Source: Frigoribacterium sp. PhB160
GTDB taxonomy: Bacteria; Actinomycetota; Actinomycetes; Actinomycetales; Microbacteriaceae
NCBI RefSeq assembly: GCF_003751785.1
Contig: NZ_RKIE01000001.1
Span: 659,564-723,563 of the forward strand
Direction: 5' to 3'
DNA length: 64,000 nt
Every line of letters starts with the position of its first letter. Within the stretch, counting starts at the first letter, position 1. Shown piece by piece: positions 45,583-49,450 of the stretch. The position numbers and the translations under genes are program-made. Under the pieces are notes generated by a model. It was not told the origin of the DNA. It searched no databases and saw nothing but the letters and a program-made list of their open reading frames with translations.

Positions 45583-46338
45583 GTGAGACGGTTCGTCGGC
45601 CTCCTGCGCCTCCTCGCGGCGGCCGCCGCGCTGACGGCGCTCGTCGGCAACTTCGTCTACGTGCTCGGCTTCTCGACCTTCACGTCGGTGAACTACTTCA
45701 GCTACTTCACCCAGCAGAGCAACACCGCCAACGCCGCGGTGCTCGTCGCGTCGGGCGTCACCGCGCTCCGCGGGCGGAGCGAGTCGCGCCTCTTCGCGGC
45801 CGTGCACGCGCTCGTCACCACCTACGTCATCGTGTCGGGCGTCGTGTACGCCATCATCGTCGCGGAGTCGGTCTCGAACGGCTACCCCATCGGCGTCCCG
45901 TGGTCGAGCCAGGTGCTGCACTTCTGGATCCCGACTTTCGTCGTCGTCGACTGGATCGCCGCGCCGGGCCGGACGCGCGTCAGCTGGAAGGTGCTGTCGG
46001 TCGTGCTCGTGTACCCGATCGTCTGGGGCATCGCGACCATCGTCCGCGGTGCCGAGGTCGGCTGGTACCCGTACTTCTTCCTCGACCCCGCCCAGGTGCT
46101 CTGGCCGGGGGAGTACCTCACGTACAACGCTCTCGCGCTCGGCACGATCGTGGGGGTGCTCGTGGGGCTGATCGCGCTCAGCCACCTGCGTCCCCGGGGC
46201 GACGCCGGCGCCGACGGTGCGCCTCCTCGGGGCGGGGGTCAGGCGGCGGGGGCGGAGCCGTCGGTCGAGGGCTCGGTCGACGCGCCCGGGTCGGTCGGGT
46301 CGCCGGTCGGGCCGGGGGCCGCGACGCGGTCGAGGTAG
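45583..46338 (+). CDS. Pr6Pr-like membrane protein
   Basis: 251 residues, GTG start. Six hydrophobic helices in the first 205 residues, with the family's 'SYFTQQSNTANAAVL' motif after helix 1, 'GVPWSSQVLHFWIPTFVVVDWI' in the middle and 'YPYFFLDPAQVLWPGEYLTY' near the end. Proteins of this type (FAR-17a/AIG1-related, Pr6Pr) are common in actinobacteria without a known role. The last 45 residues are Gly/Ala/Pro-rich. Its end overlaps the end of the convergent amine oxidase gene by 100 bp, and both proteins have low-complexity tails there. Confidence 0.75.
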   Translation: MRRFVGLLRLLAAAAALTALVGNFVYVLGFSTFTSVNYFSYFTQQSNTANAAVLVASGVTALRGRSESRLFAAVHALVTTYVIVSGVVYAIIVAESVSNGYPIGVPWSSQVLHFWIPTFVVVDWIAAPGRTRVSWKVLSVVLVYPIVWGIATIVRGAEVGWYPYFFLDPAQVLWPGEYLTYNALALGTIVGVLVGLIALSHLRPRGDAGADGAPPRGGGQAAGAEPSVEGSVDAPGSVGSPVGPGAATRSR

Positions 46339-47798
46339 GGCGCGAGGCTCGACATGATCGCGGCCACCGCGGCGTCGTCGTCGAGCTCGAGGGCGGCCAC
46401 CGCGTCGTCGCCCCCGGTCAGCGCGCCGAGGACGGGCACGCCCGTGGCCGGCATGAGGTTGACGAAGAGCCGGTACGGGCCGTCTCCGTCGAGAAGGGCC
46501 CAGACCGTGGCCTCGGTCGACCAGAACGGTTCGTCGAAGCGGAGCCAGACGACCTCCTGCTGGCCGACGCCCAGGGCGGCGATCGCGTCGAGGTGCGCCG
46601 TGGGGAGGTCGGGGGCGAACTCGGTCGTGCCCGCCTGCAGGACTCCGAGCGGGAGGGTCGACACGACGCGGTCGGCGGAGAGCGACTCGCCGGTGGCGAG
46701 GCGGAGGCCGACGCCCTGGTCGCCGTGCTGGAGGCGCACCACCGTGCTGCCGCGGAGGACGTCGAGGCCCTCGAGCTGCGCCGTCACGAACGACGAGAGG
46801 CTGCCGGTGACGAGGGGCTCGCCGCCCGGGAGGAGGTCGGCTGTGGTCGTCGCGGTGCTGGTCTCCCCGCCGGTCTCCCTGCCGGTCTCGGACGCGGCGA
46901 GGTCGTCGGGTCCGGCGCCGAAGCGGACCGGCACGGCCTCGTCGAGGAGCCAGGCGAGGCGGTCGGCCTCGGACACCCCGGCGTCGTCGGGAGCGGACGA
47001 CACGGCGTCGGCACCGGAGCCCACGACGGCCTGGGAGACGGTGAGGCTCTCGGGCTGCCGCGACGCCCAGGCCGCGGCGGCGGCGACGGCGGCTGCGGGG
47101 CCGTCGCCGAGGGAGGTCGTCGTCCCGGCGGTCGTGCGGGCGTCGACCGTCGAGGGCACGGGCACGGTCGTCACGCCGGCGAGGGCGAGCGCGGCTCGGA
47201 GGGCCACGGCGGCCTCGCCGCGGGGGACCCCGGCTCCGAGCTCGACGGGGAAGGGCCACGAGTCGTCGCCGACCGAGTGGACGCGACCGCCGACCCGGTC
47301 GCGGGCCTCGACCACGACGACGTCGAAGCCGCGGTCGGCGAGGCTGCGGGCGGCGGTGGCGCCGGCCATCCCCGCGCCGACGACGGCGATCCGCTCGCCG
47401 GGGGAGGCGACGGCGGCGACGGCCTCGGCGACCTCGAAGCCGCTCACCCGCGCGCCCGAGACCGTCCCGGCCGAGGACGACGCCGTCGCCTCGCCGGCGA
47501 GGAAGAGCCGGTCGTCGACCGGGTCGCGCAGGGTCGCGCGGTCGGTGTCGGAGGAGCCCGTCGTGAGGTAGCTCGTGGCGCCGAGCGAGTAGGGGTCGGT
47601 GGCCCAGGCGCTGCGTTCGACGGCGACGGGGGCCGCGCCGGCGGGCACGGCGGTCGGGGTCGGGGTCGGGGTGGCCGTGGCGGGCGGCGTGGTCGCGGTG
47701 GCGACGGGCGCGGGCGCGTCGGGGGTGCAGGCGGTCAGCAGGAGCACGGCGGCCCCCGAGACCGAGCCCGTCAGGAACGCGCGACGACTGATGCCCAT
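46239..47798 (-). CDS. Flavin amine oxidase-like lipoprotein, apparently circularly permuted
   Basis: 519 residues. A twin-arginine-like start (SRRAFLTG) and lipobox LTAC (Cys24) indicate an exported lipoprotein. In normal amine oxidases the dinucleotide-binding motif is at the N-terminus and the segment with W..DPYS..., FAGEAT and GA..SG..AA is at the C-terminus. Here that C-terminal segment comes first (W65 to about residue 126, with LAGEATA at 100-106), and the GAGMAGATAARSL motif follows at 141-153 with EARDRVGGRVHS at 164-175. The protein ends where the W..DPYS block would normally begin, in a Pro/Thr tail. All parts of the fold are present, so it may be active. Substrate unknown. Confidence 0.83.
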   Translation of the reverse strand: MGISRRAFLTGSVSGAAVLLLTACTPDAPAPVATATTPPATATPTPTPTAVPAGAAPVAVERSAWATDPYSLGATSYLTTGSSDTDRATLRDPVDDRLFLAGEATASSSAGTVSGARVSGFEVAEAVAAVASPGERIAVVGAGMAGATAARSLADRGFDVVVVEARDRVGGRVHSVGDDSWPFPVELGAGVPRGEAAVALRAALALAGVTTVPVPSTVDARTTAGTTTSLGDGPAAAVAAAAAWASRQPESLTVSQAVVGSGADAVSSAPDDAGVSEADRLAWLLDEAVPVRFGAGPDDLAASETGRETGGETSTATTTADLLPGGEPLVTGSLSSFVTAQLEGLDVLRGSTVVRLQHGDQGVGLRLATGESLSADRVVSTLPLGVLQAGTTEFAPDLPTAHLDAIAALGVGQQEVVWLRFDEPFWSTEATVWALLDGDGPYRLFVNLMPATGVPVLGALTGGDDAVAALELDDDAAVAAIMSSLAPYLDRVAAPGPTGDPTDPGASTEPSTDGSAPAA

Positions 47799-47864: not shown

Positions 47865-48662
47865 TCAGGCGTCGACGGCCTCGAGGTACGTGCGCAGCAG
47901 GTCGGTCACCTGGTCGACCGGGGCGAGCGACGACGCGTGGTCCTGGCCGACGAGCTCGAAGAACGCGGCCTCGGGCATGCGGCGGGCGGCGTCCTGCGAC
48001 TCGCGGTGCCGGGCGACGTCGCGGGTGCCGGCGAGCAGCAGCGTCGGCACGCGCACCGAGTCGAGCTGCTCGGCCGTGAGCCCGCCGCCGGTCTCGGCCG
48101 CGGTGAAGAACGCCGCCAGCGCGAGCGGGTCGTTCGTCGCGAACGCCTGCCGGGTCGCCGGGTCGATGCGGTGGCCGATCGTCTCGCCCCACCGGTCGAC
48201 GAAGGCCTCCATGCCGCCGGTCGTCAGCGCCTCGTGCCAGTCGGGGGTGAAGGTAGCCCCGATGTTGCCGTTCATGGGCGCCCAGCTCCCGCCGATCGTC
48301 GTCAGCGTCCGCAGCCGCGACGGCTCGTGCGCGGCCAGCGACAGCCCGATCCGCGCGCCGAACGAGTAGCCCACGTAGTGCACCGGCGAGAGCCCCGCGG
48401 CGTCGAGCACGGCCCCGACGTCGGCCCGGTGCAGCTGCATCGAGTAGGAGGCGACGTCGTGCGGCTTGCCGCTCCGCCCGTGCCCCCGCAGGTCGAGCGC
48501 CACGACGGTGAAGTCGCGCTCGAGGTCGCGCAGGTACCCGAGACCCCGCCAGCTTCCGCGCGACAGCCCGGAGCCGTGCACGAGCAGCAGCGGCGGCCCG
48601 TCGCCGTCGACCTCCCACGCGATGGGGGTGCCGTCGATCGGGTTGGTGGCCTCGGAACGCAT
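47865..48662 (-). CDS. Alpha/beta hydrolase
   Basis: 265 residues with the ATG at 48662, chosen because CAGACT lies 6 nt upstream and the fold starts soon after. Alpha/beta-hydrolase pattern: LLLVHGSGLSRGSW with the oxyanion His-Gly, VVALDLRGHGRSGKP, nucleophile Ser in YVGYSFGARIG, the acid in LAGTRDVARH and the His in VGQDHASS. The substrate cannot be predicted. Divergent from the nnrE gene, the two starts being 83 bp apart. Confidence 0.9.
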   Translation of the reverse strand: MRSEATNPIDGTPIAWEVDGDGPPLLLVHGSGLSRGSWRGLGYLRDLERDFTVVALDLRGHGRSGKPHDVASYSMQLHRADVGAVLDAAGLSPVHYVGYSFGARIGLSLAAHEPSRLRTLTTIGGSWAPMNGNIGATFTPDWHEALTTGGMEAFVDRWGETIGHRIDPATRQAFATNDPLALAAFFTAAETGGGLTAEQLDSVRVPTLLLAGTRDVARHRESQDAARRMPEAAFFELVGQDHASSLAPVDQVTDLLRTYLEAVDA

Positions 48663-48668
48663 CCCCCC

Positions 48669-48674
48669 AGTCTG
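48669..48674 (-). promoter_or_regulatory. -10 element, leaderless start
   Basis: CAGACT on the minus strand, 6 nt before the ATG at 48662. Confidence 0.5.
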
Positions 48675-48732
48675 GCAGCGCCCCGTCGACCGACCGCACC
48701 GCCGGGGGAGGACGGGGAGGCTCGCCTCGGTC

Positions 48733-48738
48733 CACGAT
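48733..48738 (+). promoter_or_regulatory. -10 element, leaderless start
   Basis: CACGAT, 7 nt before the ATG at 48746. Confidence 0.5.
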
Positions 48739-48745
48739 GGAGCCC

Positions 48746-49450
48746 ATGGTCCACGCATGGTCGGCAGCCCAGGTCCGCGCGGCGGAGGAGCCGCACCTCG
48801 ACGCGGGCGAGCCGCTGATGGCGAGGGCGAGCGCAGGCCTGGCCGAGGGGGTGCGGGGTCTGCTCCGCGCCTCCTCGTCGTGGCCGGCGCCCGTCGTGCT
48901 GCTGGTCGGCAGCGGCAGCAACGGCGGCGACGCGCTGTTCGCGGGCGCCCTGCTCGCCGCGGACGGCTGCCCGGTGACGGTCGTCCCGACGGGGTCGCGC
49001 GTGCACGAGGAGGGCCTCGAGGCCGCTCGGGACGCGGGTGCCGTCGTCGACGACCCCGTGGCCTGGTCGACCGCGGACGGGGCCGCTCGCCGCCTCGCCG
49101 AGACCGGGGCCGCCGTGCTGCTCGACGGCGTCGTCGGGACGGGCACGAGCGGGTCGCCGGCGCTCCGCGGGGCGGGCCGACGCGTCGTGGAGGCGCTGCT
49201 CGCGTCCCGCGGCGCCGGTCGCCTGCCGCTCGTCGTCGCCGTCGACCTGCCCAGCGGCGTCGGCCCGGACGACGGGTCGGTGCCCGACGACGCGGTGCTG
49301 CCGGCCGACCTCACGGTCACCTTCGGCGGACGCAAGGCGGGGCTCGTGCTCGCGCCCGGGTCGGCCCTGGCCGGGCGGGTCGAGGTCGTCGAGATCGGCA
49401 TCGAGGCCGACCTCGCGGCGATGCCGCCGCTGGTCACGCTCCCCGACTGA
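48746..49450 (+). CDS. nnrE: NAD(P)H-hydrate epimerase
   Basis: Epimerises damaged, hydrated NAD(P)H so that the dehydratase can repair it; YjeF N-terminal domain alone, 234 residues from the ATG at 48746 (an ATG three codons earlier is possible). AWSAAQVRAAEEPHL is the typical start, VVLLVGSGSNGGDALFAGAL holds the N-G-G-D nucleotide-binding motif, LLDGVVGTGTSGSP and VAVDLPSGVGPDDGSV follow as in the family. In many bacteria this domain is fused to the NnrD dehydratase; here it is not, and no nnrD is adjacent. Confidence 0.9.
   Translation: MVHAWSAAQVRAAEEPHLDAGEPLMARASAGLAEGVRGLLRASSSWPAPVVLLVGSGSNGGDALFAGALLAADGCPVTVVPTGSRVHEEGLEAARDAGAVVDDPVAWSTADGAARRLAETGAAVLLDGVVGTGTSGSPALRGAGRRVVEALLASRGAGRLPLVVAVDLPSGVGPDDGSVPDDAVLPADLTVTFGGRKAGLVLAPGSALAGRVEVVEIGIEADLAAMPPLVTLPD

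Follow-up and report, generated by a model that had tools for sequence, protein, structure and literature searches.

A protein encoded on the minus strand of the Frigoribacterium sp. PhB160 genome almost certainly has the flavin amine oxidase fold in circularly permuted form. Its gene occupies positions 46239..47798 of the analysed stretch of DNA (the window, 64,000 nucleotides of contig NZ_RKIE01000001.1). The block that completes the flavin adenine dinucleotide (FAD) site at the C-terminus of ordinary amine oxidases of family PF01593 is placed here near the N-terminus, ahead of the Rossmann part, and is preceded by a twin-arginine translocation (Tat) signal ending in a lipobox. No earlier description of a naturally permuted flavin amine oxidase was found in the open-licence literature. 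The gene, its parts and the convergent neighbouring gene are as follows, in window coordinates:

46239..47798, minus strand: gene of the permuted flavin amine oxidase-like lipoprotein, an open reading frame of 519 aa (sequence, profile searches)
47727..47798, minus strand: Tat signal (SRRAFL) ending in the lipobox LTAC, residues 1-24, with Cys24 predicted to be lipidated (sequence)
47631..47726, minus strand: Pro/Thr/Ala-rich linker, residues 25-56, mostly of low AlphaFold2 confidence (sequence)
47409..47630, minus strand: former C-terminal block of the FAD site, residues 57-130, now N-terminal (canonical profile, PF01593, invariant residues)
47394..47408, minus strand: short join, residues 131-135, from the old C-terminal helix (113-130) to the old first beta strand (136-140) (AlphaFold2 secondary structure)
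46314..47393, minus strand: former N-terminal Rossmann part (GAGMAG 141-146, E164, GGR 170-172) and substrate domain, residues 136-495 (canonical profile, LSD1 match)
46551..46553, minus strand: Val416 codon, corresponding to the flavin-N5 lysine (phmmer alignment with the Lys of LSD2)
45583..46338, plus strand: gene of a Pr6Pr family membrane protein of 251 aa (NF038065; GTG start chosen by us)

Order of the two segments

The initial annotation of the window had placed W65, D68-P69, AGEAT (101-105) and GA..SG (115-120) before GAGMAG (141-146) and had taken this order for a circular permutation. All of these placements are borne out in the sequence, and the permutation itself is supported by a profile of canonical relatives, by the curated PF01593 profile and by the order of the blocks in every one of the best related loci (see below). 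The canonical profile was built from 17 canonical-order cores (model length 423). The protein covers it from end to end in two pieces, residues 137-495 matching positions 1-353 (174.0 bits) and residues 55-127 matching positions 351-423 (67.8 bits). The 17 relatives had been found by their likeness to the permuted family, and since their cores were cut with block profiles of that family the canonical profile is not fully independent; PF01593 serves as the independent test. When the whole genome was searched with PF01593, the downstream part of the gene matched positions 1-370 and the upstream part positions 366-442 of 443, with 128.7 and 49.7 bits, both above the cut-off. The overlap between the two swapped pieces amounts to 3-5 profile positions in the two profiles.

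Taken as a single protein, the sequence matches PF01593 with 173.3 bits (cut-off 19.8), the best stretch being residues 144-494 on profile positions 1-369 of 443 only. This partial coverage is explained by three stretches that phmmer aligned out of order with PDB sequences. In spermine oxidase, residues 132-179 correspond to the N-terminus, residues 324-431 to the middle and residues 9-124 to the C-terminus (chain 368-476), and LSD2 displays the same out-of-order pattern with residues 136-178, 325-498 and 63-129, the last on chain 709-775. A second closing block at the C-terminus of the protein was not found. The swapped order is thus seen with phmmer, with the block search and with both profiles, and because the blocks are not colinear with PF01593 the protein is a permuted variant rather than an ordinary member. 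Both segments are homologous to one parent, occur swapped and in single copy and are kept in independent genomes, as is expected of a natural permutation. An ordinary-order PF01593 match is present elsewhere in the same genome (C1:1791428-1792720, profile 2-442). A rotation scan of the mature protein against the canonical profile favoured no single rotation, many of them tying at 174.0 with totals near 236. The scores tie because the natural protein already holds both pieces, and it is the two complementary pieces that are informative.

The structure was modelled with AlphaFold2 as a monomer, using an alignment of 67 permuted proteins and no templates. The model has a predicted local distance difference test (pLDDT) score of 88.9 and a predicted template modelling (pTM) score of 0.84, with ten-residue pLDDT means of 89-98 over residues 51-300. 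The structure prediction proposed in the initial annotation yields a confident fold model of the permuted chain, in which the moved block, expected there to complete the FAD domain, is modelled with mean pLDDT of 89-98 at a predicted position. The model leads from helix 113-130 to strand 136-140 through five residues, and links of 5-6 residues separate the block matches in other permuted lipoproteins too. Along the linker, the ten-residue means rise from 48 (21-30) and 54 (31-40) to 71 (41-50) and 89 (51-60). A model made from the single sequence (pLDDT 38.0, pTM 0.28) was discarded. The best PDB match in Foldseek, which aligns in chain order, was LSD2 (4fwj, E 6.5e-20), followed by bacterial monoamine oxidase (MAO), LSD1 and putrescine oxidase. 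With VIA, model residues 133-492 were superposed on chain 277-738 of LSD1 (2z5u; Z 24.8, 2.4 A, 331 residues).

Thus, LSD1 and LSD2 (KDM1), spermine and polyamine oxidases and MAO have the fold in common with about residues 128-493 of the protein and are related to it in sequence in three stretches. It differs from them in its permuted chain order, in a Val in place of the flavin-N5 lysine and in being a predicted Tat lipoprotein. The extra domains of LSD1 and LSD2 are not matched here. Permutation of flavoproteins has precedents. Engineered circular permutants of the FAD protein LucY, with a 3-1-2 domain order in the best candidate and poor expression of 4/10 permutants, indicate that permutation is tolerable in an FAD-binding protein, but they are laboratory-made and concern another FAD protein (PMC4408115). 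A natural, AlphaFold-predicted permutation was described for FMN-bind1 multi-flavinylated proteins, which are bacterial extracytosolic flavoproteins; they differ in having an FMN-bind1 domain with covalent flavin and in that a single C-terminal helix is displaced (PMC11334425).

Distribution and origins of the permuted form

A scan of named genomes retained the best 80 of 425 relatives, which, being the top matches, are biased towards the same permuted type. They come from Frigoribacterium, Frondihabitans, Cryobacterium, Herbiconiux, Salinibacterium, Leifsonia, Glaciibacter, Amnibacterium, Clavibacter, Microbacterium, Naasia, Microterricola, Glaciihabitans and Agromyces, and from some other records. 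In 80/80 of these loci the block search found the closing block ahead of the Rossmann block, once per locus. The protein was matched in all 15 other Frigoribacterium genomes searched, in G002 and G003 as a single open frame matched in two pieces. Among 398 sampled Microbacteriaceae genomes, 186 matched the permuted-protein profile at E <= 1e-30. A permuted-type match was present in at least 132 of the 398, and among the matches listed it begins within the first five model positions in 130 of these 132. The block search confirmed the order in 18/18 of the proteins L111-L128, as well as in L133-L136 and L148, whereas weaker fetched matches (about 128-467) had the canonical order. Homologues with the same order, for which the initial annotation had suggested a search, are hence widespread in the family. 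Among the plasmids, 8 records matched, but coverage of the query stayed below 80% in each.

These data also bear on the trivial explanation that the order is an artefact of assembly, frameshift or annotation, a sequencing or assembly error being one of the refutations that the initial annotation had named. No stop interrupts the frame in its own genome, and many other assemblies contain full-length homologues with the same order. We therefore reject an artefact, the probability of which is negligible.

One canonical-order relative, L143 (G224), carries a Tat and lipobox sequence and belongs to a genus (g95) whose other members G111, G173, G269 and G371 have permuted-type matches; replacement or loss of the permuted form is possible in this genome.

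Two other families of the order also include permuted versions, in four genomes altogether (2/13 and 2/12 members searched). The proteins L129-L132 (G517, G591, G449, G516) have no export signal visible by eye and begin near the W..DP block, with start codons as predicted. In a sample of the phylum, 3/246 genomes had permuted-type matches (G863, G959 and G914), all of them outside the class, and in the class of G863 such matches were present in 6/198 genomes. Five of these six, and also G914, were confirmed to have the permuted order; in the remaining one (L157) the frame is interrupted by stops. Twin arginines and a lipobox are visible at the N-termini of 4/6 out-of-class proteins, L149 being cut and L158 starting at a contig end.

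A tree was calculated from 53 rows, 36 of them permuted, leaving out L148 and L157 (both partial), 59/80 of the best loci, L001-L020 and L111-L128. A supported group (97/93) unites 29 of the permuted proteins. The tree does not separate L151, L156, L158 or the clade lacking a visible export signal from canonical-order proteins, and five of these canonical ones (L143, L144, L153, L154 and L159) resemble Tat lipoproteins by eye. In the approximately unbiased (AU) test, a single clade of all 36 permuted rows was rejected (p-AU 0.014); a single clade of the 32 rows without the long-branched clade was not rejected (p-AU 0.063). At least one ancient origin of the permutation is clear, and two or more origins are possible. 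The fold may have been permuted more than once, given that other families contain a permuted clade in which no export signal is visible. The proteins L129-L132, which sit on a long branch and keep the lysine discussed below, possibly represent a second, independent permutation.

FAD site, export signal and flavin-N5 lysine

Seven residues of the dinucleotide motifs of PF01593 are invariant in 67/67 permuted proteins (G141, G143, G146, E164, G170, G171 and R172). They belong to the dinucleotide-binding GxGxxG, the acidic end of beta2 and the GGR motif of the family. The moved block holds a further 11 residues that are invariant in 67/67, including R62, W65, D68, A101, G102, E103, G115 and G120. 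Invariant motif residues in both parts of the FAD site argue for retained FAD binding.

The Tat motif SRRAFL and the lipobox LTAC are present in the sequence; SRRxFL and a lipobox with its Cys are the motifs of a Tat-exported lipoprotein. The pattern of both occurs in 79/80 of the best loci, the exception being L064, and in 20/20 extracted proteins, one of which is that of the window. R5, R6 and C24 are invariant in 67/67 permuted proteins. Export of the protein as a lipoprotein, already proposed in the initial annotation, is predicted from these motifs. The Tat pathway exports folded, cofactor-loaded proteins, which fits the remark made there that FAD would have to be loaded before export. 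Altogether, the protein is very probably an FAD-binding exported lipoprotein.

In nearly all enzymes of the family a lysine is bridged by water to the flavin N5 (PMC12272882). This lysine, a mark of PF01593 membership, is replaced here by Val416, which phmmer aligned at the place of the LSD2 Lys. Across the 67 permuted proteins, position 416 is K in 26, V in 15, Q in 9, T in 8, R in 6, S in 2 and L in 1, so that lysine is absent in 41/67; the notion of a loss throughout the permuted family is wrong, as 26/67 keep K. Cryobacterium has K in 22/22 aligned rows, and the other Frigoribacterium rows have V (9/10) or T (1/10). Lysine is found in 17/17 canonical relatives, in 4/4 proteins of the clade without visible export signal, in 4/4 basal proteins of the same family (L133-L136) and in 5/6 out-of-class proteins, L158 having R. 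This distribution in canonical, basal and out-of-class proteins suggests that the lysine is probably ancestral and was repeatedly lost within Microbacteriaceae.

The role of the lysine has been described for MAO A, where it serves O2 reactivity (PMC8009472). There, kcat is lowered about 200-fold in K305M and 100-fold in K305S. Substrate reduces the K305M enzyme normally, its reoxidation by O2 is much slower, and quinones can take over this step; the K305Q enzyme retains activity with O2, whereas K305R has none (PMC8009472). By analogy, the O2 chemistry of the Val416 protein would likely be slow. NicA2 and Pnao, amine dehydrogenases of the same family with predicted export signals, pass their electrons to the cytochrome CycN and keep the lysine (K340 and K345) (PMC9396064). 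They resemble the protein described here in family and predicted export and provide a precedent for handing electrons to another protein instead of O2. They differ from it in keeping the lysine, where Val416 stands here, and in using cytochrome c.

The Pr6Pr neighbour and the proposed role

The Pr6Pr gene is convergent with the oxidase gene and overlaps its 3' end by 100 bp. Its product matches NF038065 ('Pr6Pr family membrane protein') with 125.2 bits (cut-off 30) and has no match in Pfam. When 27 of the 80 loci were compared in detail, a membrane protein encoded downstream on the opposite strand was present in 27/27, and no other neighbour in more than 8. A tblastn search placed a convergent Pr6Pr gene in 78/80 of the best loci, the distance from the end of the oxidase gene to the match ranging from -154 to +1753 bp. 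It was missing only in L093, whose contig stops shortly behind the oxidase gene, and in L061, where about 1.6 kb are left. No Pr6Pr gene was seen in 17 canonical-order loci or in the 15 permuted loci that fall outside the main clade of Microbacteriaceae, the flanks in both sets being about 1.5 kb or less and some of them cut by contig ends. Pr6Pr as a general marker of the permuted form is thus not borne out, given 0/15 outside the main clade on these short flanks. Pr6Pr genes were found in 186/219 genomes of the family, with one to five matches each; since they are so common, the notable point is the conserved linkage and not their presence. Shared descent explains part of this constancy. A link of Pr6Pr to the AIG1/FAR-17a family had no support in Pfam (0 matches for 3 proteins) and is not claimed, and a single literature search on the Pr6Pr family found nothing.

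Some loci deviate in their layout. In three genomes of one genus (g97), Pr6Pr genes lie on both sides of the permuted oxidase (G113:C1:1544567-1547080, G175:C3:273298-275812, G226:C106:156707-160628). Wide gaps between oxidase and Pr6Pr hold extra reading frames (L103 9470-11250, L088 9480-10460, L046 9400-10060, L064 9370-10260), that of L103 being amidohydrolase-like by eye and those of L046 and L064 short and Cys-rich. In the window, the end of an alpha/beta hydrolase gene (47865-48758, minus strand) lies 66 bp upstream of the oxidase start, and the two genes may be cotranscribed; the hydrolase does not belong to the neighbours that recurred in at least three of the 27 compared loci.

On balance, we favour as the best explanation that the gene encodes a permuted, Tat-exported and lipid-anchored FAD enzyme, probably a dehydrogenase rather than a fast oxidase. 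In such a protein, about five residues would link the old C-terminal segment, a strand and a helix completing the FAD site, to the former N-terminal Rossmann strand. The new termini would have arisen in the loop that directly precedes the W..DP block, with the Tat signal, the lipobox and the flexible Pro/Thr linker now placed in front of it. Most likely, the protein would fold around FAD in the cytoplasm, be exported folded through Tat and be anchored by its lipid on the outer face of the membrane. There it may oxidise a small amine or a similar substrate, and the electrons would more likely go to a membrane quinone or another acceptor than react fast with O2. An acceptor other than O2 seems likelier because the flavin-N5 lysine is a Val. 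That the protein is an active redox enzyme is probable; provided that it is active, a dehydrogenase is somewhat better favoured than an oxidase. An extension of this proposal, which we consider unlikely, would be a two-gene membrane redox module of Microbacteriaceae, in which the permuted, lipid-anchored amine dehydrogenase delivers electrons to menaquinone together with the convergent Pr6Pr protein, the permutation placing the lipid tether beside the new N-terminus on the FAD-closing block, so that the flavin or substrate funnel would face the membrane.

Several observations weigh against the favoured explanation. The VIA rows span about model residues 125-493 and leave out the moved block 57-130. 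NicA2 and Pnao keep the lysine and are nevertheless dehydrogenases, so the lysine alone does not decide the acceptor. As MAO A K305Q is active and K305R dead, members with Q or R need not act like the Val protein. Cryobacterium keeps Lys together with the same Pr6Pr neighbour, where visible, and lysine loss and Pr6Pr linkage are hence not coupled.

A rather unlikely alternative is that the same permuted fold works as a conventional surface amine oxidase producing H2O2 and an aldehyde, with another residue replacing the lysine in its role. The match to the amine oxidase family, the Lys kept in 26/67 permuted proteins and the activity of MAO A K305Q are all consistent with such an oxidase, but Val shares its hydrophobic character with the Met of the impaired K305M enzyme, and the ten other Frigoribacterium rows likewise have V (9) or T (1) at this position. 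The freedom with which the position varies (K, V, Q, T, R, S and L) and the conserved membrane-protein neighbour could also point to a non-catalytic FAD-binding lipoprotein derived from an amine oxidase, acting as a sensor or as a structural partner of Pr6Pr. We regard this as improbable, as the motifs of both FAD-site parts are invariant in 67/67 and positions of the substrate domain are near-invariant, for example W426 in 66/67. Permutations commonly arise through the fusion of tandem copies, and AlphaFold2 was run on the monomer only; both leave room for a fusion remnant in which two chains would exchange their N-terminal blocks to complete the FAD site, instead of a closed monomer. With a join of five residues and a high-confidence monomer model (pTM 0.84), such a chain swap is very improbable.

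Whichever acceptor the favoured lipid-anchored dehydrogenase may use, a natural permutation of a well-studied enzyme class across many genera offers a test of how much rewiring the fold tolerates and of why evolution kept the rearrangement. Because canonical-order relatives with a Tat signal and a lipobox exist, as judged by eye, permuted and unpermuted forms can be compared directly. Permuted proteins score as partial matches in linear profiles and are thus easily misannotated. The lost lysine allows the question of oxidase or dehydrogenase to be tested on a natural system, and a functional lead for the Pr6Pr family of membrane proteins comes from their conserved place next to the oxidase.

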